A stretch of DNA of 64,000 nt from Solicoccozyma terricola (Eukaryota; Basidiomycota; Tremellomycetes; Filobasidiales; Piskurozymaceae): assembly GCA_001600875.1 (NCBI GenBank), contig BCLD01000015.1, forward strand, positions 658,001 through 722,000, in the 5' to 3' direction. Below, piece by piece: positions 337-46,351 of this stretch. Position 1 is the first letter of the stretch. Each line of letters starts with the position of its first letter. The translations under genes were made by a program, and so were the position numbers. Below the pieces are notes generated by a model that worked only from the letters and a program-made list of their open reading frames with translations, was not told the DNA's origin and did not search any database.

Positions 337-3300
337 ATGGAGAAAGTGTCATCGGAGAGTTCTTTTGGGTCGGGGAAAGATGGTGGAATGTATGGGAATG
401 GAACGAAGAAGAGTCCGTTGTACAAGGTGAGTGTTCGGCGAGCGAAGCGAGCATTTCATTCTTCTGTCTTCGCGGAGCGAAAGACTATTGTCTTGCGAAC
501 GTAGTGAGCATTACCTTATGATTGCAGCGAGGATTACTATTTCTCTCTGCAAGTGTAACGAGCATTACTCTGCACTCGCAATGATCTACACTCGTATGAC
601 TCTACACTCGTATGACTCTACGAGTGCAGCGAGGATTAATCTTTCCGTCTTCGAGCGTACTGAGCATTATTCTGACATTTCTGTGTTCATTTGATTTGCT
701 TCCCCCCCCCCCCTTCTAGCGGTTCGGCGAAGAACCTCCCATCCCTATACAAGCTCATCACTGGCCTGGAGTGGTACTCGGTGGTGGAGTACCTCTCGGT
801 TCGCCCGAGGAATTCCATGTCAATCCATTCGATCTGATTCCTTCTACTGGGAGTGGGGAGGGAGGGATAAGAGCTAGTACGAGCGGATATGGAGGGACGG
901 ATATCGCTCCGTGGTTGACTGATGAGGTTTCAAAGGTCAGTGGGGTGGAGTTTACCCGGACTAGGAGGATATGAAGAGGATGGCTGACGCGGTTTGTATT
1001 GGTATTGGGGGAACCCCTTCACCCCGAACGCTCTCTCCACTCAGGTATCAGACGCCGGTTCATCCACACCTTCTCGTCAGTCCATGGCTCAGGGCGATAC
1101 TCAAACCGCTCCATCCCGTAAACACTCTTTACAACACCTTTCTCCCTTTGGAGCAACCCAAAGTCTCAGCAAATTCGGTCGTCAATCATCATACAACTCA
1201 TCTCAACAAAACCTCCCAGGTTTAACATCGTCAATAAGTGGGAACGCAACACCCGTTCTATCTCAATACACTGGTACACTAACACCCGTTGGATCGCGTC
1301 ACAACTCTGAAGCATCTCAAATCGTAAAATCAGAAAGAGACCTTAGAGGTCGGATTCGGAACGACAGTGAAGAGAGTTTTCATAATCATGGTGCGGATGG
1401 AGATTTCCAAAGTAGGGAATCTACGAATAAACATGGGAGACATGGGAGTGGGGTTTTGGGACATAGGATGGAAAGAGAAGCTTCTACGGCACCTAGTTTT
1501 ACCAGTTTGCCTGGGGATAGGAAGAGAGGGTTTGCTGCGCTTACTGGCTTGTTGAAGAGGAAACCGCATGGGAGTAAGGGAGAAGGTAAGGTTATGCACG
1601 GGGCCAAAAACCCCCGACCATCTCCTTTTGCTGATGCGGATGTCGATGTGATTTCTTCTCCTTTTGCTCCGCCAGATAACGAAGCGATGAGTGACTCCGT
1701 TCCTTATCCACCTTCTGCCGCCACTCGATCTTCGACTTCAAGGGTCGGAGATGCTTCTTCTTCAGTCGGATCCGATGGAATACGATCTAGTACATCGAGC
1801 ATGCTTCGACATGATCCACGACACAGTATTGGGTCGTCCAAGGCATCCTTATCCAAAGGTACTAGAAGACCCGGTCGGAAGGGCTCGTCACGGGATCAAG
1901 CATCACACGCTTCACAAATCCAGATGCTGGATCCGATAGCTCAGGAATACAATCTAGACACCGACCTCGAGCATATGGAAGGTATTGTGAATCTCACAGC
2001 TGCGAATCCACCTTTTGCCCACGGAGCATCCGCTTCTAGCTCTGGAAGTGGTAGTGATGCTAGACTGGTAGCAGGATTGGCCGGGAAAGTGGATCCAGCA
2101 TTGTTAACGCAATCTGAAACTTCATCCTCGACTGGATCTGGAGTGGGTTTTGATATTGGGAGAGCTGTTATTGCTCCTGCAAACAACATTCCGTCTAGTC
2201 CTTTTACTCGACAAAACCCATTCTCAAGATCACTCGATAGTGATGGACCAGTATCCGAAAATTCACCTCCTTCACCGCACACTCGGTTGAATAAACCGTC
2301 CTTTATCAGTCTTTCCAACCAGCCCAGAAGACCATCGCAGCTCAGGAATGCGAGCGGGATGCCGAGCGACGAAAATAGGGACGAAGAGACAGACCGGATC
2401 CCGCTTGAAGTTAATTCCGGGGAGGCAACAGTATTCAGAGATCCATTCAATCTTGGTGCGATATCACAAACGCGACGTGGTTCTGGTCCAACGACATCAT
2501 TGGCGCCACACGAATCCGAAGGCAATACGTCTTTGCCGACTACACCTGGTGGAACGGACGGCGGGATGCTGACCCCCGGCCAAGTAACACCACAGCTAAG
2601 CAATGCTTCTCAACCAATAGACTTGGACACTTCCGGTGCGGTTTGGACAGCTCCGGAGTCCTGGGGAGTTGAAGGAGATGCCGTGCAAACAGGAGCGTCG
2701 AGTTCCGAAGAGGACAATGGGATAGGTTTGGAAGCGAACAAGGACGAGGATGATTTCGGAGACAGGCAAATCACTCCAAGGGGCTCCGGGCCGCCTCCTT
2801 TCGGTGCAAAGGCTATCAAGCGGCAGAGGTCGAGAACTGGAACGGGTACGCGAACTTCATCTGCGAGGCAAGGGAATGTCGTTCGGTCTGTTTTCCAATC
2901 TCGACCGGGCACTGGCGGCAGCGCCTACTTGTCTACAGCGCCTGTGAGTGTGTAAAGACATAAGTGTGCGGTGCTGTGAACTGAATTATGTCGTCCGGCC
3001 CAACAGTATCATCTACGGATCTACGGTGCCGACGGCTCTTGGATGACAATGGCATTTACAGCGACAACTTCAACGCAAGAAATGCTGCATACCCTTGCGG
3101 CCAAAACGCACCTGACGAAAGGTGCGATGAAGCTGTATGTAAGAGAGCGGGGTCAAGGTGAGCAAATCAATTCACCCGACATTGTCATGCTCACCGCAGC
3201 TGATCGGTCACCTTTTACGACGTTAAGATCGACTACTATTGCCTTCGGAGAGGCCAGTCAGCATTCAGCTGCGACGTCTAATGCAGGCAGGATACAATGA

Positions 3301-6300
3301 AACGGACAATCTCGAGGAGCTCGGCAGAGAAAACTTCGCAATGCTGTGCCGGTTCATCTACCAACCGCCTGTGTTGCCTGTCATAGATCCGGTAAGGTCG
3401 TTAGGAAGGACAGTGACCTATGGCAGCTAACCTAGAAGATATTTGCCAGGAGGACGAAAGCTCGTATGACTCGTTTGAGCTGGTCGACCTAGGTAACCGA
3501 GACTTGCAAGCAGTCCCGATCTTCCTTTATCGGCACGCTCAGGCGATCATTAGCTTGAACTTGTCTCGAAATCCGCTCTCGGACCTGCCATTGGACTTTA
3601 TTCAAGCCGCAGTCATGTTGCGAGAACTTCGCATGACTCACATGGCCCTCAAGCGAGTGCCCAATAGCATACGGCGGTCGGAAAGCCTCACACGACTCGA
3701 CATGTCCTGTAACCGCATACCCGACCTGGAGCATGCCGGATTGCATGAGCTGTCAACGTTGGTGTCCTTGAAGGTGCAGAACAATCGATTGACAACACTG
3801 CCGGCAAACTTCTCGGAGCTCAAGTCACTAAAGTACCTAAATATCTCAAACAACAAGTTTGTGACGTTCCCGGCTGTAGTCTCCAAGATCACCACTCTGG
3901 TCGACCTGGACGTTTCTTTCAACGAGGTCGGGGAATTACCGAGCGGGCTGTGCCAATTGACAATGCTGGAACGCCTGGTCGCCGTCGGTAACTCGCTCAC
4001 GACCTTCCCAGATTCCTTCTCCGCGCTTGATAGCTTGCGAGACTTGGACGTCAGGCGGAATGCTCTGACGGACCTTGACGCTGTCTACAAGCTACCAAAC
4101 TTGGCCATTCTGCGAGCTGACAACAACAATCTAGTCATCTTGGATGCCGGGCTCGGCTCCAAGGTTCGAGAGTTCGGCGTACCGCACAACTCTATCACCC
4201 GTTTCAATCTTGCGAACCTTTCAACCACCTACTCGGCGTATAGCTTGACAACGTTGGATCTATCCTACGGTAAGTTGTCGACATTAGCAGACGACGCGCT
4301 CGAGCAGCTGGTCAATCTGGAAACTCTCAACCTCAACTACAATCAATTCGTCCGCTTGCCCTCGACCATCCCTTCCTTGCGAAGGCTTAGATATTTTTCT
4401 TGCACTGACAACGTCTTGACCCTACTGCCGGAGAACATCGGCAGCATGGAGAATCTTCAAGTGCTAAACGTGCACAACAACAATTTGAAGGACTTGCCAG
4501 GCAGTATCTGGTTGTGCAAATCTTTGATTGTTCTCAACGTCAGTTCCAATCTACTGGACTCTCCATTCGAGTTCCCTGAGGCTGGGCCAGCGGACGATAT
4601 GCCCGACGAATCTGATATACAGCGCAAGAATTCTGCAACGTCAGGCTCTCGCAGGGCGTGGCCGTTGTCGAAATCACTCCGCAAGCTCTACCTCGGCGAC
4701 AACCGGTTGACGGATGACGTTTTCGACTGTGTGTCACTTCTCACGGGCCTACGCGTCCTCAACCTCAGCTTCAATGACATCTACGAGATCCCATCTTGGA
4801 CGCTGAGCAAGAATCAGGCGCTGGAAGAGCTATATCTCAGTGGCAACCACCTGACGAATTTACCGTCTGAAGATCTCGAGCGACTGACCAATTTGCGGGT
4901 GCTTCATCTTAACGGGAACAAGTTGCAAACCCTCCCTGCCGAACTCGGAAAGATCAGGAATCTTTTGATGCTTGATGTTGGGAGCAACGTTCTGAAATAC
5001 AACATCGCTAATTGGCCATACGATTGGAATTGGTGAGCGTGGAAGTCAAGCCGGGATGGGCTCCAATGCTGATAATTGATTTTACAACCGCAGGAACTGG
5101 AACCTGGAACTGCGCTACCTCAATCTGTCTGGAAACAAGAGACTCGAAATCAAACCAAGCAGTCAACACGAGATGCTGCTCGCCGGCAACACTCGTCGAG
5201 ATTTATCAGACTTCTCCAAGCTTACACAGCTGCGTGTTCTAGGACTTATGGATGTGACTTTGAGGATACCGTCATTACCGGACGAGAGCGAGGATCGTCG
5301 AGTCAGGACTTCCTTCTCTGACGTCAACAACATGGCTTACGGGATCTCAGACACACTCGGAGCATTGGACAACCTCTCGATGTTTGACCTGGTCGTGCCC
5401 AACTTCCGAAGCAAAGAGAATGAGTGCCTCTTCGGAATGTTCGGTCGCTCACGGCCAAATGTCAGTGGCGGTGGTGTACCAAAGTACGTGCAGGAATGGT
5501 TCATGCAAGCATTCACTCTCGAATTGGACCGCTTGCGTGAGGGCGAACCGGTGCCCGAGGCTCTTCGTCGGACCTTCCTGTCTCTCAACAAAACTTGCTT
5601 CGAGTACCTGTCGGCCAACGATGGCAGACGTAGAGGCTCAGTGGCCAGTTGCAATACAGTCGACTCCCTTTCAGGACAGGCAAACGCCTTCTCATCCACC
5701 TCATTCCTCTTTAAGAGCGGAGCGGCCGGCGCGGTAGCATATCTCGTGGACAAGACGGTGTATGTTGCAAATGCAGGAGACATTCTTGCCGTTGTTTCGA
5801 ATGCCGGGGAGGCAGAGTTGCTATCTGTCAAGCACGACCCGTTTGACAGGGAAGAAACAATGCGAATTCGGGCTGCCGAAGCCTGGGTGTCGCCCCGAGG
5901 CTTGGTGAATGACGAGATCGATATCTCCCGAGGCTTTGGCTTCTACAACGCCGTTCCAGCCGTCAATGCTCTGCCAGACATTATTACGCGCACTTTGACC
6001 GAAGCCGACGAATTTATTATTATCGGTAATCGTGGGTTATGGGACTACTGCTCGTATCAGACGGCAGTGGACATTGCTCGAACCGAAAAGGACGATCCCA
6101 TGATGGCGGCGCAGAAGCTCCGAGACTTTGCTCTCAGCTACGGGGCGGAAGGATCGACCATGATCATGGTTATTTCTGTTAGGGATCTGTTTTACCCTAG
6201 GGCTAGTCGATCGAGGCAACAGATGGCGGCGGATAAGGAAAGCGGAGTAGCCGATCTTGAAGGTCACTTCAACGTAGCCAAGCGAATCAACAGACGTAAA

Positions 6301-7610
6301 GGGGAAGAGGTCGTTGGTGATCGTACACTTCAACGATTACAGCAGGAAGTCGAGCCGCCGACTGGCCAGGTTGCATTAGTGTTCACCGATATCAAGAACT
6401 CAACTTCGCTCTGGGAAACCAACGCGGGTATGCAAACCGCAATGCGATTGCATAACAGCTTGTTGAGGAGACAGCTGCGGATCATCGGTGGATACGAGGT
6501 CAAGACCGAAGGAGATTCTTTCATGGTGTCATTCCCCACCGTCACCTCTGCGATGCTGTGGTGTTTTACGTGTCAGCTGCAACTGATCAATGAGGATTGG
6601 CCACGGGAGATCTTGGAATGCGATGATGGACGGGAAGTCCTGGATGCGTATGGCGACCGGATACACCGAGGTTTGTCCGTTCGAATGGGGATACACTGGG
6701 GAACTCCTGTGTGGGAGAAGGATCCTATCACTCGCCGAATGGACTACTTTGGTCCCATGGTCAACAAGTCGGCTCGTATTAATGCCAGTGCGGATGGAGG
6801 GCAAATCATGGCCAGTTCGGACGTGCTCAAAGAGGTGCAGGGGCTGTATGACTATCTCGAGACCGAGGAGGATGACCAGGTCGAGCAGTTGCCTGGAGAC
6901 GTCGGGAGAGATATCACGCAGCTGCGTCGCCTGGGCCTGGGTGTGCTTGACATGGGCGAGAGAAAGCTGAAGGGATTAGAAGGTGAGTAGAGGTATGACA
7001 CTGGTAGCGGATTGTACAGTGCTGACTTTGAGTGTGGTGCAGTTCCGGAACGACTCTTCTTGGTCTACCCCAAGGCGTTGTCCGGGCGTCTCGAGATGTC
7101 AACGCAGCTTCGCGAGAACGTCGAGGTCAATTCTGCGCGTCTGTACGGCGGAGAAGACCGGGTCATAAGCCTCGATGATGTCAAGCAGTTGGTCGTTCTC
7201 TGCGTCAGGCTCGAATCTCTCTCGGCAGGCAAGGTGTTTGGAGATTCTCAGCCCATCGTGGAAGCATCCCCTGCTCCCAATGGCACGGTGGTCGTCCGCC
7301 AGCAGGCGGCGAGATGGCACGCCGCTTACACTTTTGGACCCACCGTCAGTGCGGAAATGACAGATGATGAGCTGATAGCGATCATCGAGTCACTGACGAC
7401 TAGGATCGAGAATGCCATGTCGACGCTGGTGAGTGGGGTGTGGACGCCCGGCAGCGTGGAGTCTCGACTGATATCTCTTGTCACCAGTACCTTAAACAAG
7501 TTGGCGATTTTGCAGGTGTGCTCTCTGCATTGCAGCAGATGACAATGACCTCACCGGGTGGTTTGCTCAAGGCTATATCAGCGATCGGAGGTGCCATGAG
7601 GATGGGATAA
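337..7610 (+). CDS. CAC1: adenylate cyclase (fungal RA-LRR-PP2C-cyclase type)
   Basis: Makes cAMP from ATP, the central second messenger of nutrient and G-protein/Ras signalling in fungi. Exons read in frame: 337-426, 720-935, 1045-2943, 3007-3157, 3228-3391, 3450-5032, 5094-6982, 7043-7428 and 7488-7610, giving about 2166 residues, close to the size expected for Cryptococcus-type enzymes. Order: a long serine-rich N-terminus; a Ras-association-like segment encoded at 3007-3391; a leucine-rich-repeat array (3450-5200); a PP2C-like domain (about 5330-6190); a class III cyclase domain (about 6350-6800) with the FTDIKNSTSLWE metal-binding motif and EGDSF; and a C-terminal tail ending in a glycine-rich helix. 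The first intron (427-719) is unusually long and repetitive. The next gene converges on it. The only real doubt is the exact N-terminus. Confidence 0.95.
427..719 (+). repeat. degenerate repeats inside the first long CAC1 intron
   Basis: This 293-base intron is four to five times longer than its neighbours. It holds several diverged copies of a unit built on GAGCATTA or GAGGATTA followed by a pyrimidine run and an ACTCG/GTAGTGAG stretch, spaced about 40-65 bases (near 449, 507, 530, 560, 633 and 664), plus an exact repeat of CTACACTCGTATGACT at about 590-620. It ends in a run of C just before the acceptor at 719. Confidence 0.6.
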
Positions 7611-13820: not shown

Positions 13821-14152
13821 TACATGAGGTTGAGGAGGGACTGAGGGACTGAGGGACTGAAGAGGATGAGAGTGGATGGTGAGTGTGAATGGCACGGGGC
13901 AATGACCCCGGACTGTCACGTGTCAACTCTGTGTAATTACTTAATCATTTGCCACGTCATCACTGCCCTCGGACGCCACGTGCCTCCCTCCCCGCCGGCT
14001 ATCCCCGTGTGTTTCACATAGTTTCGCCGCGTCCCCGAGAGATCTCCGTCAGTCTCCCGCCCTGGACAAGCTCAAAACAGCATGCAGGAGGATGCGCACT
14101 CGCCTATCGCATCACCACCCTCCTCATCCAACTCTATCGCACTCTTACACCG
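13821..14152. promoter_or_regulatory. divergent promoter, Mios / apiosidase-like gene
   Basis: A 332-base region with several CACGTG-type boxes: GTCACGTGTC near 13916, GCCACGTCAT at 13951-13960 and GCCACGTGCC at 13975-13984. A CGG-N6-CCG pair sits near 13998-14009, a possible weak site for a zinc-cluster regulator. An in-frame ATG at 13949 would extend the hydrolase by 68 residues, but the added sequence looks non-coding and overlaps these boxes. Confidence 0.5.
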
Positions 14153-16180
14153 ATGCAGTCAATCATCAACCCTTCCGATTTCTCCCCTCGTCCTGCGGCA
14201 TCCCTCTCCATCAGTCGAGGACTGTCCATCCAGCCCTCGCCCTCGGGTCACCACCTCGCCCACTACTCCACGCAATCCCCGTACTTCTGGCTTGCAGACA
14301 CGGCATGGGAAGCGTTCCATCGCTTGAACAAAGAACAGGTGGGGTTGTATCTGAAGAATAGGAAGGAGAAGGGATTCGGTGTCGTTATGATGGTAATTTT
14401 GGCGGAACATGGGTGAGTTGGGCCTTAGCGATGGCTATCTGCACCTCCTCTCGTTACTGATATATGACCTGTTGGGATCGCAGTGGATTGGACATTCCGA
14501 ATCGATACGGAGCGTTCCCATTCCATCCCCTTCCTGATACAACGGACACAGCAATCTACAAGCCAGACTTCACTCGTCCCAATCGCGCCTACTTTGATTT
14601 CGTAGACTACGTCGTGGATGAAGCAGGGAAATTAGGAATGTTGGTCGCGTTGGTACCTACCTGGGGTCGATATGTGAATGGTGGTGAGTTTAAGAACATC
14701 CGCTCTTTGCCATGTTGGTATGATACCTGACATTGGTTGATTGAGCCCACTCAACAGGTTACTACAAGAACCCACCCCTCTTCACACCTTCAACAGGATA
14801 CACACTCTGTCATTTCCTGGGATCTCGATACCCTTTCCTTCCGTTCATTCTCGGAGGTGACTCGAATCGATATTGGTCTGACAAATTCGATTCACCCGAG
14901 GGCACGGTTGTTGAATTGGTTGATTATGGTGATGTTGTGGAATCGATGGCCAAAGGGTTGATTGAAGGGGAGAGAGAAGCAATTTCAAAGATGAGACCGA
15001 CAACATCGATCAACCAAGACATCACACCTTACAAGACATTCATCATTTATCATTCAGCTCAGCCTTGGTTCCCCAAAGGTCCAGTCTCGACAGGTTCAGC
15101 TCAATTCCCAACATCGGATTGGTTGACTCTCGACGCTTGTCAAACCGGTCATCAAGATATCTCCAATCCTCGACGACCAGCTCCCACCGGCACCACCGAC
15201 GCTCCTCCATCGGGTCAAACGAATGCTTCTCCCAAACCTGCTCTTCAAATGTGGCAAGCTAAATCATCGTACGTTCCCATTCGTCGTATGTATTCCACAC
15301 CCAAACCGGATGGACACCCTAGACCCGTGTTGGATTTGGAACCTCATTACGAGGCGACACACCATTGGTTTACGAGACATATGGAGATTTGGAATCATGA
15401 CGATGTGAGGAAAGGGGCTTGGCAGGCGGTGAGTGGGTTCCTCCTCTTAGAGCCGAAGGATTATGATGTCCTGATGTCGTATTTGGGTGTGATGCTGCGG
15501 ATTAGTTGTTCGCAGGGGCTTGCGGGCTGACTTATGGCTGTAATTCCATCTGTGAGGGGGTATCGATATGGTGGTGACCAAGTTGTCTTGCTGATGGTGT
15601 GCTTGTGACGCGAATTTCAGGGCAATTCCATGATGAGGACTCAAAGACACATCCTCCGATTGTCCAACCCGTAAGTTCTCCTCGGTAGCCTAGCATGTAC
15701 ATGCAGGTCACTGATGATTCTCCTTACAACCACCAGACAACGGCATACACCAACTGGTACCTCGAGCTCGACCTACCCGGGGCGTTTCAAATGACGACCG
15801 CCCGTCAAATAATCCTCTCGCTCCCTGGTTCTTTATACGACCGTATCCCTGACTCGACATTCATTCTCACCGAGCGACATGAGGTAGCACAGGAAGATGA
15901 GCTACTTCGTCCTGCCGGGGACAAGTTGATCGCGGGGATGAGAAGTGAGAAGGGCAAGTGGGCGATGGTCCATTTGCCTTATGGGGGCAAGGTGGAGGTG
16001 GATTTGGAGAAGGCGTTGATAGGAGCCTACAAGTATCGTGCTTGGTGGGTTGACCCGAGGGTTGGAGGAAGGGAAGTTATTGGGACAGGTTCTGCAGTCA
16101 ATGAGACCTCTTCAAGGGCTACATTCGATGCACCTGATGATACTGATTGGCTGTTGTTGTTCGAGGCTGTACCCCAGTAG
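14153..16180 (+). CDS. apiosidase-like glycoside hydrolase (DUF4038 / GH140-like)
   Basis: Predicted intracellular glycosidase of about 556 residues. Exons: 14153-14412, 14484-14683, 14758-15428, 15506 to about 15547, about 15622-15670, and about 15737-16180. It has the DUF4038 catalytic barrel: [12 protein letters not shown] (about 44-55), a GGD at 186-188 in [11 protein letters not shown], and VLDLEPHYE (about 344-352). By analogy with the Bacteroides GH140 apiosidase, D188 and E348 are the likely acid/base and nucleophile. The C-terminal 140 residues match the beta-sandwich annotated as a putative collagen-binding domain ([15 protein letters not shown]). There is no signal peptide, so if it acts on plant apiosides it does so after uptake. 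Alternative: another exo-glycosidase of the DUF4038 superfamily; specificity within it is poorly known. Confidence 0.85.
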
Positions 16181-16275
16181 CTTATTCCCGTCTATGATTC
16201 CAAACATATATCAATTTCATTTTCATTTTCAATTTTCACATCTTTCCAGCAGAGCAATATTCACACCACACCCTC

Positions 16276-17770
<1,495 letters not shown>

Positions 17771-17959
17771 GATGGACTGTGGGAAATGACAAGGAGTTGA
17801 TATGGGATGCAGATGAAGAGGAATTGGATATGTTGAGCATGTCGATCTGGTTATATAAGACAGCGGCGCATCCAACGCGGCGAAACTAAGGAAATCCATG
17901 ATAAAATGATATCATCGGCAAATAGAGCAGTGGGGCCGCCCGCATCCCGCTACTCCCGG

Positions 17960-19441
17960 CTACAAGTCCTCATCTACAATCTGGACCTTGACACTCCGCT
18001 CTGTGGGGTCACCTGCCACCCTGAAAGCTTCAGTGGCATCCTCCAGCTTGAATGTATGCGTGACAGTGTCCTCTATACCTGGCAGACGATGAGCAGCGAG
18101 CATACGAATGATTACTGGCCAGGTGGAAGTGTAGCGAAAGTTGAAACGCAGATCGATCTGAGAATGTTCGCGGACAGGATGAGCGGATGTGCTGACACCA
18201 GATGAAAGAAGACGTACCTGTCTCATAGCCAGCGACTGGAAAGGGACGACCTGCTCGTTTTTCCCATTACCAATCTGCATCAGAACACCACCGTCTTCAA
18301 GAGCTGGACCACGTTGTTCCTAGTTCAACTTGTTGTACATATTTCCGCCGTACACGAGAGCCATGCACTCACCATATACCGCACCAAAAACACTGTCCAC
18401 AGCTCCAGTACATTCCAACGCAACTCTCGGTCTGATATTCCACTTGTCAAACACCTCCCCTATAGCTTTCGCCACCTCCTCCCCCTTCCACCCAATCTCA
18501 ACCTTGACAACCTGATCCGCCCCGCACTTTGTCGCCCATTCCAGTCGATGCTCCGCGATATCGGTCACGATGATGGGGTATGCACCTGCTGCACGAGCAA
18601 GAGAGATCGCGGAGAGTCCGATAGGACCGGCACCCAGGATCAGAGTAGGTGTGGCTAGTTGAAGTGAAGAACGAAGGAGGGATGCATAAGACACCGAGAT
18701 GGGCTCAACGAGAGCCGCATGGGAGAACGACATGGAATCAGGGATCCTGAAAAGGACGGGGGTCAAATCAACGATCATCCACGAGCTATAATGTTCCGGC
18801 CGATCCTACTTGTGTAAAAATGACCCCTTATGAGCGATATACCTCGCCAAGGTGCCATGCGTCGGTGGCGTGCCGCAAAACTTGACTTCCTTGCACAGGT
18901 TGTATTTCCCACTCTCACATTGGGTACAAGCAGAGCAGCTGACTCCAGGCTCGATGGAGACTCGATCTCCAACCGTCAAGCCCTTTACGAGTGGCCCCAC
19001 GGACAATACGATACCGGAGGATTCGTGTCCCATGATAAGCGGGTGGGTGATACGAAAGTCACCAATTCCACCGGTGCGGAGGAAGTGCAGCTCACTTCCG
19101 CATAGTCTGCAAATTGAGATATATCAGGCAATGTTCGGTTATGGATATCAGGGGAGATGGACTTACCCAGTACATTTGACATGGACGATACACTCGTCAG
19201 CCTTGGCTCTCGGGAATGGTATCTCCTTGATGTAGCATTCGTGCTCCTTGTTGACATATACAGCGAGGTTGGATTTAGCAACAAAGCCAGGAGGTAGAGG
19301 TAAATCAAGAGCCTCCTCGACCAGGGTCTTGACGTCTGGAACGCTCCGATTCGCCTTCAGGTGTGAGATATGAGAACAGACACAGGATTCGGTGGACAGG
19401 GTGGCGGAGCGGTCGTCGGCCGTTGTTGCGATTGGAGACAT
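17960..19441 (-). CDS. zinc polyol dehydrogenase (sorbitol/xylitol/L-arabitol dehydrogenase type)
   Basis: Medium-chain dehydrogenase that oxidises a polyol to a ketose. The start at 19441 gives an N-terminal extension of about 55 residues before the usual domain. Zinc ligands visible: catalytic C94 in LCGSEL, H119-E120 in GHESSG, and the later VEP; structural zinc cysteines C149, C152, C155 and C163. The Rossmann motif ILGAGPIGLSAISLARAAG is followed by IIVTDI, whose Asp at the end of strand beta-2 suggests NAD over NADP. The common ICGSDVHY motif reads LCGSELHF here, a change near the substrate pocket. The end is SVKVQIVDEDL. Divergent from the Zn2Cys6 regulator and upstream of the aldo-keto reductase, an arrangement that suggests a reduce-then-oxidise sugar step. 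Confidence 0.9.
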
Positions 19442-19754
19442 GGTAGCGGTTATGGATGGGAGGTGACGACGACGACGACGAGGAAGTGGGTTCTGCGGCT
19501 GTTGACAGTTTGATCGCTCCAGGTGGTGAAATATGGAAGACTACAGGAAGGGAAGACTACTTGACAAATGGGTGGATGTCCTCGGACCCAAGCACCCCGC
19601 CAAACATCAAAAGTTTCGCCGCTGTACCCGCGCGGCGATTCCGAATCTCCAACTCCTCGTTCATCCTCCGTGTCACTGACAGCGATGCATCGCATATCAT
19701 CATCCCCCCGTCCTCCCCTTCCTCCTCATCCTCACAGCCGCACCATCCCCAACC
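19442..19754. promoter_or_regulatory. divergent promoter, polyol dehydrogenase / Zn2Cys6 regulator
   Basis: A 313-base region between two outward start codons. It contains an inverted CGG-N5-CCG at 19633-19643, a form often bound by zinc-cluster dimers, about 112 bases before the regulator ATG. This would allow autoregulation and co-control of the dehydrogenase; that is inference. Confidence 0.5.
19633..19643. promoter_or_regulatory. CGG-N5-CCG inverted site
   Basis: Exact inverted CGG triplets spaced five bases in the divergent promoter of the polyol dehydrogenase and the Zn2Cys6 factor; a candidate operator for that factor. Confidence 0.4.
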
Positions 19755-22700
19755 ATGCAATCCAGCTCCGAAATCAGTCCCCAGCCGGGCAAAAAGCGGA
19801 AACGTACACCGGTAGCTTGCCATCCATGCCGGCATCGCAAGCGAGCATGCGACGGTGTCAAACCGACATGTTTGCAATGCTCTGACGCAGCCTGGGTCTG
19901 TGAATGGCCAGAGAGGGATAGGAGGAAGAGAGATCCTGGGATAGAACGTGAGCTTGACGAACCAGAGGTGAAAGGGACGGGAGTTGATTAGCTTGATTCC
20001 GGTTGCAGCACGACCCTTTCCTTTGCCGGGTAATAAAACGGAGAGGACGTCGAGTTCGTTTGGCGGCGACAAGACACCGTCCATATCGAATGATGTGCGC
20101 CCAACCTTAAGTCCCACGTCTCGCTTGCACCATGAGCACCGGCTTCCAGCATCCAACGACATCGCGGTAGATGGTCCACACCCAGATTGGACAGCAACCT
20201 CGGAAGCCTGTCAAATGGACACTGGACCACGCAACAGTTTCCAGACGGGCAGTTCGTCTTCGAGATGGCAAGCGCCTCAATTCTGGAGCACAATTGATAA
20301 CACGGATGTTCATGGTGACGAGAAAAGGGTACACTCAGACCCGAGCGATTTCGATGGTGCTCACCAGTAAGCCCTGACATCGCGAGCACAAGGGGGTTGA
20401 TTATTTCTGACAGAAGCTCTGCAGTCTGCTTGCTCTCAATGCAAACACTCAATCAGTGTCATTCGCCCCGGATGTACAGCATCAGCAGGAGGAAACAGGT
20501 TTCACGAATTATCACGTCCTTCAGCCAGTGAGACCCCAAGATGCTCACCCACCCACGGAGACTGCCAAGATCTCCTATGAGTACCTGCGGCCGTACGGGA
20601 TCACCGCGATCCAGCCCGGACTTGGAAGGTAAGGCTTGTGGAAGATGGGCCCTAATACAGGCTAACAGTTCCGTATTCCCCAGAGTCCGACTGTCCATTC
20701 GAAGCGATCCACCTCTGACATCGTCCTCCAATGGCCCATCCCCATCCTACTCCATCCCAGACCACACATCTCAACCCTCCCACCCTCTAATAGACCGTTC
20801 AACACGTCTGCCTCGCGCAGATGTCCGCTCAAGCCTCATCGCGGGGTTCTTCGACCATTTCCAAAGTATCTTCCCGTTTGCTAATCGATATAGCCTCGAG
20901 GGACGGCTGTTGGGGAAACCGGTGTTGGGCACGGTGTTTATGGTGAATGCAATCTGCGCGTTGAGTGCTCGGTGAGTCGTTCTATCGTCTACATTTAGTG
21001 GTAATGGATGCTGAACGGCTCGTCGTCATCATTTCAGATTTAGCGATCATGCTGAGATCGTCGCTCTGAGCCCTCTGCCCTTCTGCAGAGGTGTCGCTTT
21101 CGCAGACAATGCCAAGCAGCTGCTTATCCCGTTGATGGGCCTTCCTTCAGCGGATACCGCTGCAGCTCTACTTTTCTTAAGCTATTACGCGTTCGGGATG
21201 AACAGCGAGAGTGAGCTATGGATGTATAGTGGAATGGCTATGAGGATGGCGGTGGATTTGGGACTGGGAAGGCGGATGGGTAGTAGGAGTAGCAACAAGG
21301 CGGACCGCTTGTTGTTCTGGAGGTGAGGTTGGCGGTTCCAGACGGCTATGATGGTACCTAAAACATTTCCTTCGACTGCAGCATCTACATGCTCGATCGT
21401 ATACTGTCTATTGGAACAGGAAGGCCAACCACTCTACCGGATAGTCAAATCGACCTCAACGAGCCTTTGGTGGATTTCCATGCTGAGCTGGGTCTAGCCA
21501 CGACAGGACCTATACCGGCAATGTATGCGCGACTCAAAGACTCGAGTGGCTGCACATTAGCATTCGCTTGGGCTGTCAAGATGGTCCGCTTGTATGGCAA
21601 GGTTGCGGACATTGTGAACGGTCCCAAGTTCTGGTCTAACGGGATGATGACTGGATCGGCGATGCCTACACGAGCGCCTAGTCCGGAGCCTCGACCGACC
21701 CTGAGCGATGCGTCGGCACAGGCAGCACCATGGTCCACGAAACACGTAGCGGCTGCAGATATTCCTCCTCGCACCCAGCAGCCTTCGCCCACGAACCAAT
21801 CAGACCTCAATGCTCTAGCCGAGCTGGAGAACGCCATAGTTCAGGCATATGACTCGCTTCCGGAAGTGCTAACTTGGAGTGAGCAGAAGTAAGTGGTGTT
21901 CGGTGTCACCGAAATTTCGCAGTGACTCACAGCGATTGATCCTTAGTCTCGAAGAACATGTGGGAGCTCATGACGGAGACATGTACATTCACATTCATCT
22001 CTGGGTGAGAGCAATCTGTTCGGAGGTCCGCAAATGCCAATCTGACCATTCGGCCTGTTCTTTGCTCTCCAGTACCATTGTATGATCGCCATTCTATACA
22101 GAGAACCACTCGGACAAGTCAGCGCTGCAAGTGCCCACATCTCCCTTATGGATGCGAAACAAATACAGAGATCTTCAGCGGAGGAGATACAGAAGATTGC
22201 AGAACAGGTAGCGGTACGTCGCAGACATGGACCCATGCCCATCTCATATAGTCTGACGGTTTCACCATTTGTAGAGCAACAACCTTCCCATTCTCCTCAA
22301 CAACTGCTTCTTGAACCAAACGTTCTACACTGCTGCACTTGCGTGGGCCTCAGACTCGACGACACAGCCGCGTACAAGCTCCAAGCTCCTTGCAAAGTCC
22401 CTCAGTGGTAATTCTTCGAAAGCATTGGAGCGGTTCCAATACTGTGCCAAACTGTTACGCAAGCAGAGCGAAGTTTGGAGTGGCGTCGGGTGGATTGCTG
22501 CTGCGCTTGCCAAAAGATCATCTGGCATGTCATTGCAGGATATGGCGGCAAAGGGAGGCTTGACCGACACGATCTTATCAGAGACTGAAATGGCGAGTCG
22601 CAACGCCGAATTTGGTATGGACTGGCTCGCTGACTGCTGTGATTGCTCCTTTACCAGCGAATTATCACGACCGGGGAGAGACCACAAGAGGAAGAGGCAC

Positions 22701-22895
22701 TCTTCGATCTGCGAGAGAACCTTCTGATGGCGCTTCCTGATGATCCGCTTGATCCAAACGGTGAGTAGTCATCTACACCTCGATTCTACGCTGCCACCTG
22801 ATTCACACACCCTACCTCAAGGTCTACCGATGCTCTGGGGAGCAGATGGACTTTTCGATGCAGAGATGGACCAGCTGTTCTTCGGTCTCACATAA
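19755..22895 (+). CDS. Zn(II)2Cys6 transcription factor
   Basis: Fungal zinc-cluster regulator, probably pathway-specific for its neighbours. The binuclear cluster is at residues 22-49, with cysteines 22, 25, 32, 39, 42 and 49, preceded by the basic KKRKR. Exon 1 ends with a phase-1 donor near 19948 and joins about 20012. Further exons restore EYLRPYGITAIQPGLGR, then the fungal-specific transcription factor domain: SLIAGFFDHFQSIFPFANR, LLFLSYYAFG, MAMRMAVDLGLGRR, SIYMLDRILSIGTGRP and the C-terminal helices up to the TAA at 22893-22895. It sits centrally in the block, divergent from the polyol dehydrogenase and converging on the kinase gene with a 75-base gap. Its closest characterised relative is not evident from sequence. 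Confidence 0.9.
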
Positions 22896-22970
22896 TAGCA
22901 TTTGTAATACATCGAAGGAGATCCCGGGTATACAGTATATGGTCACCGCTCTGATGTTCACATTGCTCGT

Positions 22971-25402
22971 TCAAGCACCGCCCCGCAAACCATCCACCAG
23001 CCTCCAGATACCCCATGCACCAGGGTCTGGAATGTCAGCCTTTCTGAGGTCTTCCTGGTTGACATAGCTTCCTCGTCCCGCCTTTGCGACCATCTCCTTG
23101 GTAGCTTCAGCCGCCTTGTGAGCTTCTTCAGCCGCGGCGTGAAGACCTTTCGAGCCGAGGACAGTCACGAATGCCTGGAGAGGGTCAACAAGGGTCCTTG
23201 AAGGAGGCCTGGCGCGAGTGTCTGGTTGGAATGCCATACTCTGTCAGTCTTTTCCCAATGCCTCAAGCACTTCAATAAACTCACATCGATATAGGGTCGT
23301 CAATGCATCCTCTGCCCCTTTTGCCCAGACTGCAGTATTCGCTGTCGTCACGCCTTCCTCTGTTTGCTGCCTTAGACTCTTAGCGAGACCCGAGACGAAG
23401 ATGGAATAGAGCGATCCCGACGTGCCACCCATGCGATCTTCACAGACTTCGGCGATCGCGTTTATATCAGCGACGACATTGGCGCCCTTGATAGTGTTGT
23501 TGCCGATGGCTTCGAGGACGCCTGAGAAATTTCAGAAGATCAGTGGCGTACTTGCTTATTATCACTGCGGCGATACATACCTTCTGCTCCAGCCTTGAGT
23601 GTCAACCCAGCATCTCCATCACCAGCGATTACATCCTGCCTTGTGATCTCCGGCTCAGCCTCAATCAAGCTATGACAAGCCCGCTCGAGTGCTTTGATGA
23701 ACCCTCCTTTAGACTCGGCTGCATTGATCCCCGTCGCAGAGTCAATATGTGGTCCTTCCCGTACTCTTCAGTCAAGGACTCACGAGACATGAGAGCCGAC
23801 TCCTCGACCACCTTCTCGACCTCATCCTCGGCCGTCTTAATTTCCATCGGCGCGCTCTTGGAATACCACCTCCAGCCGGGAACATCAGCCGGTGCATCGA
23901 GGTAATCCAAGATCTCATCTGGAGAGTAAGCTTGACCTTGTCTTGGAAGGAGAAGCAGTGTCAAAGAGAATCCTGGCATGTCAAGAGAGGTCTATTGAGA
24001 ATCCACATTCAGCTCAGGTATACCGAGGTCGCAAGCGTGAGTCCACGGAACTGACCATGTATGTTCCACTCAAGAACCTCTTCACCACTATACCCTTCCT
24101 TCGCAACCATTTCATCGCCTCGTTCCCAACCGCACCAAGCTCAAGCTCAGATACTCCACCCAAGTTATTGACAAGAAGAATAACTTCATCTTTCCCGTCA
24201 CCTGCTCGGGACGCAACCCAATCTGAGCATACTCAAGCGTTTCACGACGTAGAGCAAGATGTACACACCTTTGAAAGGAACAAACGCCCTGTCCTTGTCG
24301 GTCGTGTCGGTGATGACAGAGAGAAGCTTGTCGACGATAGATGATACACCTTGCATTTTTTGCTTTGAAGTTCCTGGCTCGTTGTGAATGCCCATTCCCT
24401 GCGAGATGTGTTGCCATTAACGCCATAGAAAGCAGCCGAGGTCAGAGATGGCACTAACAAGCTCATATTCATCAGAAGAAAGATGAGATTTTCCCTTCTC
24501 CGTTCCAGGTACCTGTCCATCATTTGCCAACAGTAAACAAACCACTCTTCTCCGTGTCCATTGATCTTGCACATACTCACATGACAATGTTCCAGGCCAA
24601 TTCCAAATGTACCAAGCCTATCGCAAGCCCATTTGGCCAATTTCTCGACTTGATCCAATGAAGCCCCTTGATGCGAGAGACCTGCCGCTAGTTTGTAGAC
24701 TAGGATGGTACCGGCTAGGCCTCTACAATTACCATTTCCTACAGTTTAGGGGCAACATCCAACCATGAAATGTTGGGTTCGATCGACTTACCGTCTTCCA
24801 ACGATACCCCCTTGTTCACGACCGACGGAAACATCATCTCCGACGAGAAGAACACGAACGTCTCCTCCTTTTGCTCCTGAAGCTCGATGTTGTTCCGACG
24901 CCAGACCGAAATGAAGGGCATCTCCAGAGTAGTTCCTAACGAAAAACCTCGACGTCAGAATGGGGTAGAACCATCAAAATAAAATTCTCCAAGACCTCAA
25001 CTACTCACATCACAACTATCAAAGTTCCCTTCTCTCCATTCACCAGATCGATTCCCCGTCTGATTTGTTTGACATTGGGACTGGCGAACACATTGCCACA
25101 AATTGAAGCGTCGAGAAGACCTTCACCAACGTATCCAGCATGAGATGGTTCGTGGCCGGATCCTCCACCGGAGATCAGCGATACATGGGAGGGGGCATTG
25201 GATGTTGCGATATTGAAGATGACTGTGTGATGGATCGCGAAGAGGACGAGGTTAAGGCGGCTGTGGGAGACGACTCTTACGACCCAAACTCACCTCGTTT
25301 CGACTCGTCGATCCCGAGTTGAGGATTAACGGCACACAAGCCTCTGAGTGACTCAAGTACGAGGGACTCTGGAGTGTTGAGAAGGTGTTTACCTGACGAC
25401 AT
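22971..25402 (-). CDS. dihydroxyacetone-kinase family ketose kinase (DAK1-like)
   Basis: ATP-dependent kinase of dihydroxyacetone and related short ketoses, with fused DhaK and DhaL domains. The start at 25402 (MSSGKHLLNTPESLVLES) is the usual DAK opening. DhaK shows LISGGGSGHEPSHAG (about 53-67), and the covalent substrate-binding histidine lies in GIHNEPGTS. DhaL shows GDGDAG (Mg-ATP ligands), MGGTSGSLYSIF, and GRGSYV near the end. Many short exons, all in frame where checked. It is divergent from the transketolase-like gene by 333 bases, a pairing that suggests consecutive steps. Family members elsewhere act on dihydroxyacetone, erythruloses or glyceraldehyde, so a branched ketose such as apulose is chemically reasonable but unproven. 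Confidence 0.92.
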
Positions 25403-25735
25403 GATGTTGATTGAAGTGGGGGTATGTTGTCGAGCGGTGCGTGGTGTTTGCTTGCGCTCTTCCCATCCAACGATCTCGAGACCGACCTCCACTTCCCTGT
25501 TCGGCTACGGTGGGGCACCGCACTGCACCAACAACCACTCCATTGCCGTCCATCCCGCTACAATGCCGGTCGGGGCAGCCATCCATGTCGGTTGGACCAA
25601 ACCAGCCAGGTCTTGTGTTTCTCCGTAGATAGAGGTAGACCCAGAGTTGATTCAAGTAGCACCCCTTTCCTCCTGTCATCCCACTTCATCATCTTCCCAT
25701 CTTCCAACTCTCGTTGCACTTTCTCGCGTTCAACG
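25403..25735. promoter_or_regulatory. divergent promoter, ketose kinase / transketolase-like
   Basis: Single shared 333-base promoter region. It holds closely spaced direct CGG triplets (CGG-N3-CGG at 25502-25510; CGG-N1-CGG at 25567-25573), compatible with zinc-cluster factor binding. No coding sequence is supported in it. Confidence 0.45.
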
Positions 25736-28445
25736 ATGTCGCCACCCATTGCCATGCACGCCGACGAGACCTCCAGACCGGAGGTTGGACTCACCAAGGC
25801 TATGAAAGTGAAGCCTGTGAACGCCGAGGTACGTTTTTCAGGCGTATATCGTTGTCAGATCCATTTGGAGACCCCGATTTATCATGCTGACTTTCCTACT
25901 TGCCCACCGACAGGATGAAGACGTTCAACTTGTACTCAACACCGTCCGATGCCTTGCCGCGGACTTGTGCCAACAAGTGGGTCTTACAAAACCCTTGTAT
26001 ATACATCCAGTTCTAATCCTGAAAAACTACCCCCCCAGTTCACAGGTGGCCATCCAGGAACAGTCATGGGAGCGGCCGGTATCGCTCTCGCCTTGTGGAA
26101 ATTCCACATGCGATACAACCCTCTTAACCCGTCTTGGTTCGGTCGAGACCGTAAGTTACCATCTACCCTTGCTGCACCATCCTGTCCGCAACATATTGAA
26201 CCCACTCCCCCTATATCCAGGCTTCATCTTATCAGCAGGTCATGCATGTCTTCTCCAATACATGTTCCTACACCTGTCTGGGTATCCACAATGGACAATG
26301 GAACAATTAAAGATGTATCACTCGAAAGCGCTTGAAGGGAGTATGACAGCTGGACATCCAGAGATAGAGTACCCTGGAATCGAGGTAACGACTGGACCTC
26401 TAGGACAAGGAATTTCCAATGCGGTCGGTATGGCAATCGCAGCTAAACAGCTTGGAGCGACTTATAACATGGAAGGCTTCGAAGTGATAGGGAAGAGAAT
26501 ATGGTGTTTTACGGGGGATGGGTGTTTGCAAGAGGGTGTAGGACAAGAATGTGAGTGCGGGGTTGTCATATCTGCACAACGGGATATCGAACTTATATTC
26601 ATATCACAGCCATCTCTGTTGCCGGACATCTTGGACTTGACAACCTCGTTTTGATATATGACAACAACAGCATCACAGTAGATGGATCAATCGATAATTG
26701 CTTTACAGATGATACCTCTGCTAAATTGAAAGCTACAGGATGGCATGTGATCGATGTATACAATGCAACAAACGATGTGAGTGTTGCGTTGATATCTTGA
26801 CTCGGGTGGCAAACGCTGATGTTTTCAAAATTCGACTTTTACAGGTCACCGCCATCTCCAAAGCAATGGAACAGGCAACTTTTGTTACCGGCAAACCAAT
26901 CTTTATCAACATCCGCACCATCATCGGCTTCTCCTCACGCAAAGCCAACACTGGACCAGCTCATGGTCAGCCGTTGGGCGAAGAGGAAGTAGCGTATGTC
27001 AAGTCTCAACTTGGTTTTGATAACGAGAAACACTTCCATGTCCCTCAGAGGGTATACGACTACTTTGGAAGTTGCGCAGAGAAGGGTAAAGCATTGGAAA
27101 GGGAATGGGACGATATGATGATCAAGTACAAAGAAGCGTATCCTCTAAAAGAAAGAGAACTTCGTTCCCGCATGAACGGCAAATTCGACCATCTCACATC
27201 GAAACTTCCTTCCAAAGATCAACTCCCTACTGCTCCTCAACCAACGAGGAAATCCAGTGGCATAGCTATCCAAGCATTGGTGCCTGATTGCAACTCTTTT
27301 GTTGCTGGAAGTGCGGATTTACTGGAATCGACGTTTGTCAACTTCAAGGGTCAAGTGGAGTTTCAGAAAGTAAGCCTCCGAGATGTGCATGTCGCGTAGA
27401 GAAGAGTTCCTGACCAGGTCTTCCTCATTTCAACAGCCCTCCTCTGGCCTTGGCGATTATAGCGGCAGGCAGATCCGATTCGGCATTCGAGAGTTTGCCA
27501 TGGTAGGTATCGGAAATGGGATGGCTGCATATCAAAAAGGGATGTTCCTGCCGTGCGTAGTCTTGTGACCCGGAATAATAAACTCGTTAGCTGATCGTCT
27601 CATCCCCTCCTCCACAGAATCATGTCAACCTTCTTCATGTTCTGGCTATACGCCGCGCCGGCTGCTCGAATGGCTGCATTAATGGGACTCCGATTCATCG
27701 GCATTGGTGAGTGGTGCCGCTAGGGCGTGTATGATGAAACGGCTCCTCACGTCTCTGCCTTCCCTCTCCAGCCACCCATGACTCTATCGGTATCGGAGAG
27801 GACGGGCCTACACACCAGCCGGTGGCCTTGGCGGCTTTCTATCGGGCCCTTCCTAATTTCAACCTCATCCGACCTGCCGATGCAGAGGAGTGCATGGGAG
27901 CGTGGACACTGGCCCTCAGCGAAGAAGAAGCGAGCACTCCTAGCATTTTCGCATTCAGTCGTCAACCTGTACCACTTCTGGAAGGGTCTTTGCGTGAAAA
28001 GGTCAAGCTCGGAGCCTATGCAGTGCTCGGTGTGGATATCGCCGCCCCAGATCTCGTGCTCATTGCGACTGGCGCAGAGGTTACAAGAGCCATCGAAACA
28101 GCAAAGCTACTCCCTGACCTAAAGGTAAGGGTCGTTTCCATGCCCTCGCAACGGCACTTTGATATCCAATCACACGAGTACCGCAAGTCTGTCATCCCGC
28201 CTTCATCGATTGTGGTGGCGATCGAGGCCTGGTCGTCCTACGGCTGGGCAAAATATGCGCATGCCAGTCTGTCAATGCAGACATTTGGACATTCCGCACC
28301 TCAAGCGGAACTATTCGAGTACTTTGGCTTCTCGCCGGCAAATATGGCTCGGAAGATTACTTCCTATGTGGAAGAGCGCCGGAGCGAAGGTGGGTACGAG
28401 GTGGGAGACTTTCGCGAGTTGCTACTGGGCCATGTTGGACATTGA
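25736..28445 (+). CDS. transketolase of the dihydroxyacetone-synthase type
   Basis: Thiamine-diphosphate enzyme transferring a two-carbon ketol unit. The start is MSPPIAMHADETSR at 25736. Motifs in order: FTGGHPGTVMGAAGIALALW, RFILSAGHACLLQYMFLHLSG, TTGPLGQGISNAVGMAIA, the ThDP/Mg site GDGCLQEG...NNSITVDGS, the pyrimidine-domain RFGIREFAM with the catalytic Glu, ATHDSIGIGEDGPTHQP, and AIEAWSSYGW. The GGHPG and LSGHACLLQY region resembles dihydroxyacetone synthases more than yeast Tkl1. The motif that usually reads REHAM/REHGM has Phe in place of His. The end GHVGH is not a peroxisomal PTS1 signal, unlike methylotroph enzymes, so a cytosolic role is likely. It is probably not the housekeeping transketolase: it is divergently paired with a ketose kinase inside a sugar-catabolic block. 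Confidence 0.9.
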
Positions 28446-46300: not shown

Positions 46301-46351
46301 GAAGAGAAGAGTGTTGCGATTATCAAAGACGAGGATGAGCTGATGGAATGA
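40330..46351 (+). CDS. CHD1: CHD1 chromatin remodeler
   Basis: ATP-dependent nucleosome spacing factor acting during transcription elongation. Exon 1 (40330-40499) starts [12 protein letters not shown]; an acidic, proline-rich N-terminus follows ([12 protein letters not shown]). Tandem chromodomains lie around 42100-42540 ([27 protein letters not shown]). The Snf2 ATPase spans about 42600-44130 with [18 protein letters not shown] (the DEAH box split by an intron), [22 protein letters not shown] and [17 protein letters not shown]. Then a SANT/SLIDE DNA-binding region (about 44760-45290, [19 protein letters not shown]) and a C-terminal CHCT/DUF4208 domain (about 45770-46000, [11 protein letters not shown]). 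The tail is lysine-rich. An intron near 46000-46090 contains a long GT microsatellite. No key residue appears missing. Confidence 0.96.
46016..46042 (+). repeat. GT dinucleotide microsatellite in a CHD1 intron
   Basis: Run of about 11-13 GT units starting just after the donor of the last CHD1 intron. Confidence 0.85.

Follow-up and report, generated by a model that had tools for sequence, protein, structure and literature searches.

D-Apiose, a sugar with a branched carbon chain, occurs in rhamnogalacturonan II, in apiogalacturonan, and in numerous glycosides of plants. A bacterial transketolase pathway for it was reportedly worked out, with its detailed chemistry, by Carter et al. in 2018. 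We know of no apiose pathway in any eukaryote; the one proposed below for the basidiomycete yeast Solicoccozyma terricola would be the first, if confirmed. Among the titles listed for apiose in fungi and yeasts from an open-licence library, none names a fungal pathway; the same library gave no paper under the word apulose, and of its papers on apiitol none, by title, concerns catabolism. In bacteria, according to the excerpt of PMC13001218 used here, the kinase aplK comes before the transketolases aptA/aptB. The excerpt also describes a D-apiose cluster of Escherichia in which the isomerase gene apsI is missing and two putative oxidoreductases are present, which its authors propose as the replacement; Escherichia with that cluster grows on D-apiose as sole carbon source. 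Here we describe six genes at positions 14153-28445 of a 64,000-nucleotide stretch of S. terricola (contig BCLD01000015.1, positions 658,001 to 722,000, forward strand; hereafter the window), which on balance we take to encode an isomerase-free pathway of D-apiose catabolism, whichever of its kinase and its transketolase acts first. The substrates of all its enzymes are predicted.

The six genes encode a GH140/apiosidase-like hydrolase, an aldo-keto reductase (AKR), a zinc polyol dehydrogenase (MDR), a Zn2Cys6 regulator, a DAK-family kinase (DAK), and a transketolase (TK) resembling dihydroxyacetone synthase (DHAS). A kinase, a transketolase, and a regulator are common to this set and the bacterial D-apiose transketolase pathway, and here the DAK and TK genes adjoin, 333 bp apart. 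Like the Escherichia cluster, the fungal cluster has two oxidoreductases, AKR and MDR, in place of an isomerase, and Pfam finds no isomerase among the six genes. A first, sequence-only reading of this DNA had proposed that a reductase/dehydrogenase pair replaces the isomerase step; the gene content agrees with this, and the excerpt of PMC13001218 provides a precedent.

The enzyme families differ: the cluster of E. coli SE15 (NC_013654.1, 572041-582988) has, besides its regulator, two oxidoreductases of the SDR type, an FGGY kinase, a split transketolase, and an ABC transporter, whereas the fungus has AKR and MDR, DAK, and a full-length DHAS-like TK. The E. coli cluster contains no apsI, and no GH140 occurs among the features of its region. 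The fungal TK shows 33% identity to E. coli aptA over 231 aa and 23% to aptB over 206 aa; by this low identity, and by its grouping with fungal DHAS-like enzymes, it does not belong to the split aptA/aptB family. Comparison of the E. coli kinase and SDR proteins with the fungal kinase and oxidoreductases gave no match of interest. If the apiose reading is true, bacteria and fungi reach the same logic (two oxidoreductases, a kinase, and a transketolase) with unrelated enzymes. For the two SDR proteins of E. coli SE15 the fungal reading suggests apiose reductase and apiitol dehydrogenase as candidate activities, and so, if true, candidate enzymes for the apiitol step missing in Escherichia.

Six contiguous genes and a proposed route

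The claim of six adjacent genes without interruption holds in rebuilt gene models: all six lie where the sequence-only reading had put them, no other gene lies between them, all reading frames are closed, and each of the 45 introns is GT..AG, 40-85 nt in length. The models, which are sequence-based, come from a home-made spliced-gene predictor with hand correction, and the last splices of the regulator are the least certain. Pfam likewise supports, for all six proteins, the families first named for them. Intergenic gaps along the cluster are 95, 189, 313, 75, and 333 bp, in order, and MDR/regulator and DAK/TK are divergent pairs. Across the genome (23.9 Mb, 33 contigs), profile matches identify at least one GH140, at least five transketolase loci, and at least five Dak1 loci, all of these counts being lower bounds because genome searches score best candidates only. 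The sole GH140 detected in the genome, one of the five TK loci, and one of the five Dak1 loci fall inside 14.3 kb. With these loci brought together in this way, and with the partial recurrence in other genera described below, the clustering of the six genes is more than chance.

In the route we propose, an imported apioside would be cut inside the cell by the GH140 hydrolase, yielding D-apiose, which the AKR, probably with NADPH, would reduce to apiitol. Oxidation of apiitol at C2, here assigned to an NAD-type MDR, gives apulose, an achiral ketose. The DHAS-like TK would then cut apulose between C2 and C3, the two-carbon unit joining glyceraldehyde-3-phosphate to form xylulose-5-phosphate and the remainder being dihydroxyacetone, which DAK would phosphorylate to dihydroxyacetone phosphate (DHAP). 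The Zn2Cys6 protein would govern the gene set through a shared 11-mer. We favour apiose as the substrate because this reading leaves none of the genes without a role and accords with the 11-mer, the partial co-location, and the Escherichia precedent. If true, it provides a fungal apiose route with a defined gene set. A more specific version, which we put forward tentatively as possible, is an old basidiomycete route with neither an isomerase nor a dedicated apulose kinase, in which GH140 is cytosolic, the DHAS-like TK splits free apulose (with a ketone as leaving group), and an ordinary DAK ends the pathway.

The GH140 hydrolase (14153..16180, + strand; 556 aa, 6 exons; Pfam PF13204, 6.2e-79) covers positions 4-317 of the 320 in its Pfam model, with 266 bits against a cut-off of 26.5. 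Its PDB matches include 8t9w, an entry under the name 'Apiosidase' (3.6e-44), and 3kzs/5msy from Bacteroides (4.2e-26). Candidates for its catalytic acid/base and nucleophile are D188, in a GGD motif, and E348, in DLEPHYE; the GGD and DxExxYE motifs are invariant in 12 of 12 homologues aligned (alignment A1), and E348 stands opposite E264 of the 3kzs chain. The catalytic Asp/Glu of the BT1012 apiosidase are, we assume, D187/E284. By its full-length domain and its candidate catalytic residues the protein belongs to GH140, with hydrolysis of apiosides as its predicted activity, and it shares the catalytic domain and the conserved acidic motifs with both the BT1012-type (3kzs/5msy) and the 8t9w apiosidases.

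It differs from bacterial GH140 apiosidases in that, by a crude test, it and 14 basidiomycete relatives lack a signal peptide, and in forming a separate clade. The test takes the highest ten-residue mean Kyte-Doolittle value within the first 35 residues. The value is 0.85 for the S. terricola protein, 0.04-1.85 for the 14 relatives, and 2.59 for Wallemia; five of six bacterial GH140s, at 2.43-3.48, look secreted, and the sixth scores 0.87. The basidiomycete proteins, then, are probably without a signal peptide and not secreted, and therefore would cut apiosides after uptake; if the apiose reading is true, they indicate a family of apiosidases that act in the cytosol. A 45-row tree (44 of 120 listed matches plus the query) places the hydrolase in a 17-row, almost wholly basidiomycete clade (100/99). 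Inside this clade the microbotryomycetes (4 rows) and the tremellomycetes (12 rows) form separate groups, each at 100/99, which argues for an old basidiomycete family with no recent import.

The fungal oxidoreductive pentose pathway consists of an aldose reductase, an L-arabitol/xylitol dehydrogenase, and a xylulokinase. The cluster follows the same reductase-then-dehydrogenase logic with the same two enzyme superfamilies, and differs from it in having DAK plus TK in place of xylulokinase and in the character of its MDR. The AKR (16276..17770, - strand; 320 aa, 9 exons; Aldo_ket_red PF00248, 1.7e-49) is nearest to aldehyde/aldose reductases, its best PDB match being the aldehyde reductase 2alr at 250 bits. 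It carries IPKSV, not the IPKSN that we take to be the motif of xylose reductases, and xylose use was rejected as the leading explanation on that ground. The MDR (17960..19441, - strand; 409 aa, 5 exons; ADH_N PF08240, 8.3e-25, and ADH_zinc_N PF00107, 1.3e-19) has L-arabinitol 4-dehydrogenase 3m6i as its best solved-structure match, at 297 bits. In a 45-row tree (44 of 120 listed matches plus the query), however, it lies on a long branch within a clade of 22 rows (99/98) to which A. nidulans ladA does not belong, and so outside the L-arabitol 4-dehydrogenase group. It has Phe at the position of LadA M70 and, by our own alignment, at that of Y318; according to the excerpt of PMC2731777, xylitol and sorbitol dehydrogenases have Phe at both. 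Other members of the 22-row clade carry Cys at the first of these positions (M70), so the Phe residues leave the MDR substrate unfixed. An Asp in its VTD motif suggests NAD as cofactor. Its homologues P0241-P0262, a basidiomycete clade, mostly have CGSE[IL]HF instead of CGSDVHF, and carry the source names 'putative xylitol dehydrogenase' or 'chlorophyll synthesis pathway protein BchC'.

A dehydrogenase, a ketose kinase, and a regulator might also form a tetritol (erythritol-like) cluster of the kind found in Yarrowia lipolytica, with the MDR as erythritol dehydrogenase, the DAK-type protein as erythrulose kinase, and a Zn2Cys6-type regulator; in Yarrowia we take the kinase EYK1 to be of the DAK family and the dehydrogenase EYD1 to be a zinc dehydrogenase. 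The excerpt of PMC5992420 indeed places the erythritol dehydrogenase EYD1, the erythrulose kinase EYK1, and the regulator EUF1 in one cluster, a likeness to the locus described here. The same excerpt gives that cluster RpiB- and TpiA-like isomerases and reports in it no GH140, AKR, or TK, whereas the six fungal genes include no isomerase. Since erythritol use would leave GH140, AKR, and TK without a role, we regard it as highly improbable.

Transketolase, kinase, and the order of their steps

The TK (25736..28445, + strand; 722 aa, 9 exons; Transketolase_N PF00456, 6.9e-124, and PF02779) scores 691.7 on the transketolase model TIGR00232, whose cut-off is 682.25, and 583 bits against S. cerevisiae transketolase, with catalytic residues retained. 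In yeast numbering, counted by hand from the alignment, the retained residues are H30, H69, H103, H263, R359, S386, H469, D477, H481, and R528. A tree of 65 of 120 listed matches, the query, and four other TK loci of the same genome places the cluster enzyme with basidiomycete DHAS-like enzymes and three further own-genome copies, outside the ascomycete methylotroph group; four of the five TK loci (at least five having been found) are DHAS-like. Its closest named enzyme type is the dihydroxyacetone synthase of methylotrophic yeasts, the Candida boidinii and Komagataella enzymes being 47% identical to it. It nevertheless falls outside that class, standing in a separate clade and having no peroxisomal C-terminus: it ends in GHVGH, with no type 1 peroxisomal targeting signal (PTS1), and a PTS1-like end occurs in none of the five cluster enzymes, while C. 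boidinii DHAS ends in NHL and Komagataella DAS in DKL. If the apiose reading is true, it supplies a natural role for DHAS-like transketolases outside methylotrophs and explains why TK is kept in this yeast, which presumably has no methanol pathway.

A transketolase cut of apulose between C2 and C3 leaves dihydroxyacetone, or DHAP if C4 is phosphorylated. Because cleavage of unphosphorylated apulose yields dihydroxyacetone, an ordinary dihydroxyacetone kinase could end the pathway if cleavage comes first. The DAK of the cluster (22971..25402, - strand; 597 aa, 11 exons; Dak1, 3.7e-105, and Dak2, 3.2e-38) scores 638 bits on the glycerone kinase equivalog TIGR02361, above its curated cut-off of 574.95, and 405 bits against the dihydroxyacetone kinase of PDB 26vk. 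Because it passes that cut-off, we favour cleavage before phosphorylation, at slightly better than even. The sequence-only reading had the kinase act ahead of the transketolase; both genes are indeed present, and the DAK score makes that order doubtful.

Phosphorylation first would mean that DAK acts on C4 of apulose and that the product, apulose-4-phosphate, is then cut by TK to give DHAP and the two-carbon unit. Such an order is the one given for bacteria (aplK with aptA/aptB) in the excerpt of PMC13001218, and TK keeps residues that would bind a phosphorylated substrate. Four of those retained, R359, S386, H469, and R528, are presumably the phosphate-binding residues of yeast transketolase. 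The same four are required for glyceraldehyde-3-phosphate in both orders, however, so they decide neither, and no feature marks DAK as an apulose kinase rather than the dihydroxyacetone kinase that its score indicates. Set against all other readings this variant is rather unlikely by itself, and its share of the probability lies within that given to the apiose pathway as a whole.

An AKR of aldehyde-reductase type together with a DAK also fits use of glycerol or dihydroxyacetone by the Gcy1-Dak1 logic, and a DHAS-like TK paired divergently with a DAK fits assimilation of formaldehyde by the xylulose-monophosphate cycle (DHAS plus DAK). Both would leave GH140 and MDR unexplained. The genome has at least four further Dak1 loci and at least three further DHAS-like TKs, and the missing PTS1-like ends and the position of TK outside the ascomycete methylotroph clade likewise speak against this explanation, which we consider very unlikely. 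On the evidence given for each, glycerol, formaldehyde, and erythritol use were rejected as the leading explanation of the cluster.

The three additional DHAS-like TK copies are mutually close in sequence and lie at about 24-27 kb on C12, 52-55 kb on C24, and 45-47 kb on C5, that is, each roughly 20-55 kb from its contig start; some may be incomplete. Upstream of the C24 copy, and head-to-head with it, is a stretch of 38 residues (L030:3495-3608, - strand) that shows 66% identity to the N-terminal end of the DAK in the cluster; no further DAK match lies beside it. It is possibly the remnant of a duplicated DAK/TK pair.

Co-location in other basidiomycetes and a shared promoter word

Co-location was read from locus tags and contigs in the lists of homologues of GH140, TK, and MDR, with 120 matches listed for each, and the pairs compared were GH140-TK and TK-MDR. 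Where locus tags are not close, a shared contig was inferred from identical contig sizes across lists. The TK-MDR count takes MDRs of the query's clade only and leaves out Schizophyllum commune, for which the two lists hold different strains. Among the matches listed, six species have both GH140 and TK, and in three of these the two share a contig. In Phenoliferia psychrophenolica the tags are RQP46_002332 (GH140) and 002336 (TK); in Meredithblackwellia eburnea two GH140s, TK, and MDR lie on one 2.52-Mb scaffold; and in Cryptotrichosporon argae the GH140s Q5752_007094 and 007106 flank TK 007102. The two C. argae GH140s (Q5752_007094, Q5752_007106), within 12 locus tags and on either side of the one TK, come from different subclades.

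TK and MDR share a contig in four of ten named species among the matches listed: Meredithblackwellia, Marasmius tenuissimus (around PM082_015789-015799; tags 10 apart), Dendrothele bispora (on a 453-kb contig), and Rhodotorula paludigena (around Rhopal_006465-006476; tags 11 apart). They are also together on two further contigs, of 16,610 and 9,562 bases, which were counted apart because such contigs come to notice only when both genes match. On all six contigs the MDR groups within the query's clade of 22 rows and away from L-arabitol dehydrogenase. Conserved co-location in relatives, which the sequence-only reading had named as its own check, is therefore found in part, at three of six species for GH140-TK and four of ten for TK-MDR, with the remaining species having the genes on different contigs.

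Within the window, three of the four promoter regions of the cluster have the 11-mer AGTTTCGCCGC in common. It occurs at 14020..14030 (+ strand), 133 bp ahead of the GH140 ATG; at 17877..17887 (- strand), 107 bp ahead of the AKR ATG; and at 19612..19622 (+ strand) in the promoter shared by MDR and the regulator, 171 bp from the MDR ATG and 133 bp from the regulator ATG. When all words common to the regions are listed, it is the only 11-mer present in three of the four. These are its only exact copies in the window (three); the 23.9-Mb genome holds 19 (11+8). Since the same letters read backwards occur 15 times, the word is not enriched genome-wide, and 13 of its 16 sites outside the cluster fall within open frames 120 aa or more in length. 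Finding an 11-mer common to at least three of four regions is rare: it happened in 0 of 2000 dinucleotide shuffles and in 1 of 3000 real random quadruples. The real quadruples were random stretches of 24 own-genome loci, 16 of them chosen for holding the 11-mer, and those with a common 30-mer were excluded from the hits. The Zn2Cys6 regulator (19755..22895, + strand; 844 aa, 11 exons; Fungal_trans PF04082, 7.4e-25, and Zn_clus PF00172, 4.5e-5) would act through AGTTTCGCCGC.

Several observations weigh against an apiose pathway. GH140 and TK are on different contigs in Naematelia encephala, Kwoniella newhampshirensis, and Kwoniella sp. B9012 (three of the six species), and TK and MDR are split in six of the ten (Naganishia vaughanmartiniae, N. 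liquefaciens, C. argae, Naematelia, Kwoniella dejecticola, and Tremellales sp. Uapishka_1). No TK of Saitozyma, Papiliotrema, or Leucosporidium is among the 120 matches listed, although a GH140 is listed for each. The GH140-linked TKs fall in more than one subclade instead of forming one clade, which means that the link either arose early and was frequently lost or was formed more than once. The divergent DAK/TK promoter (25403..25735) lacks the 11-mer, its best match, at 25616, having three mismatches; when one mismatch is allowed, the window holds 4 copies against a shuffled mean of 0.89, and 3 of 100 shuffles reach 4, a mild enrichment. No sugar transporter was recognised beside the cluster among 20 scanned open frames. 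Bacterial GH140 loci, found by a contig scan with alignment A1 and then searched by tblastn with the fungal proteins, add no parallel: the best 80 of 571 relatives, mostly Bacteroidota, gave TK at one locus (22%), DAK at none, MDR at three, and AKR at two. Support for the fungal cluster from bacterial operons was accordingly rejected, these best 80 of 571 loci giving none.

The main doubt arises from the TK-MDR core, which occurs where no GH140 is listed and there may serve another sugar. Marasmius, Dendrothele, and Rhodotorula pair TK with MDR on single contigs, yet no GH140 of theirs appears among the 120 matches listed, and Cryptococcus and Kwoniella have TK and members of the MDR clade among the matches listed. 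On this evidence the core, with or without AKR and DAK, could be a module that basidiomycetes use generally for a different aldose, polyol, or ketose, with GH140 as a side input or as a neighbour in certain lineages. Absence of GH140 from 120 listed matches is weak evidence, however. Two genera, from two subphyla, have GH140 close to TK, and a third has both on one scaffold; in the cluster, moreover, the GH140 promoter has the 11-mer in common with those of AKR and MDR/regulator. We therefore judge a general module unlikely, and prefer the apiose pathway.

Genomic surroundings

The left neighbour of the cluster is a MIOS-like gene, with its alpha-solenoid above and its WD40 domain slightly under the Pfam cut-off. 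Farther left in the window are a gene for ribosomal protein L10/P0 (8186-9064, - strand) and pieces of an adenylate cyclase (988-6990, + strand) that include a G-alpha-binding domain, leucine-rich repeats, PP2C, and cyclase domains. To the right lie a CHD1-like SNF2 helicase (43122-46351, + strand) and HMG-CoA reductase (49822-51786, + strand), which, like the ribosomal protein gene, represent housekeeping surroundings.

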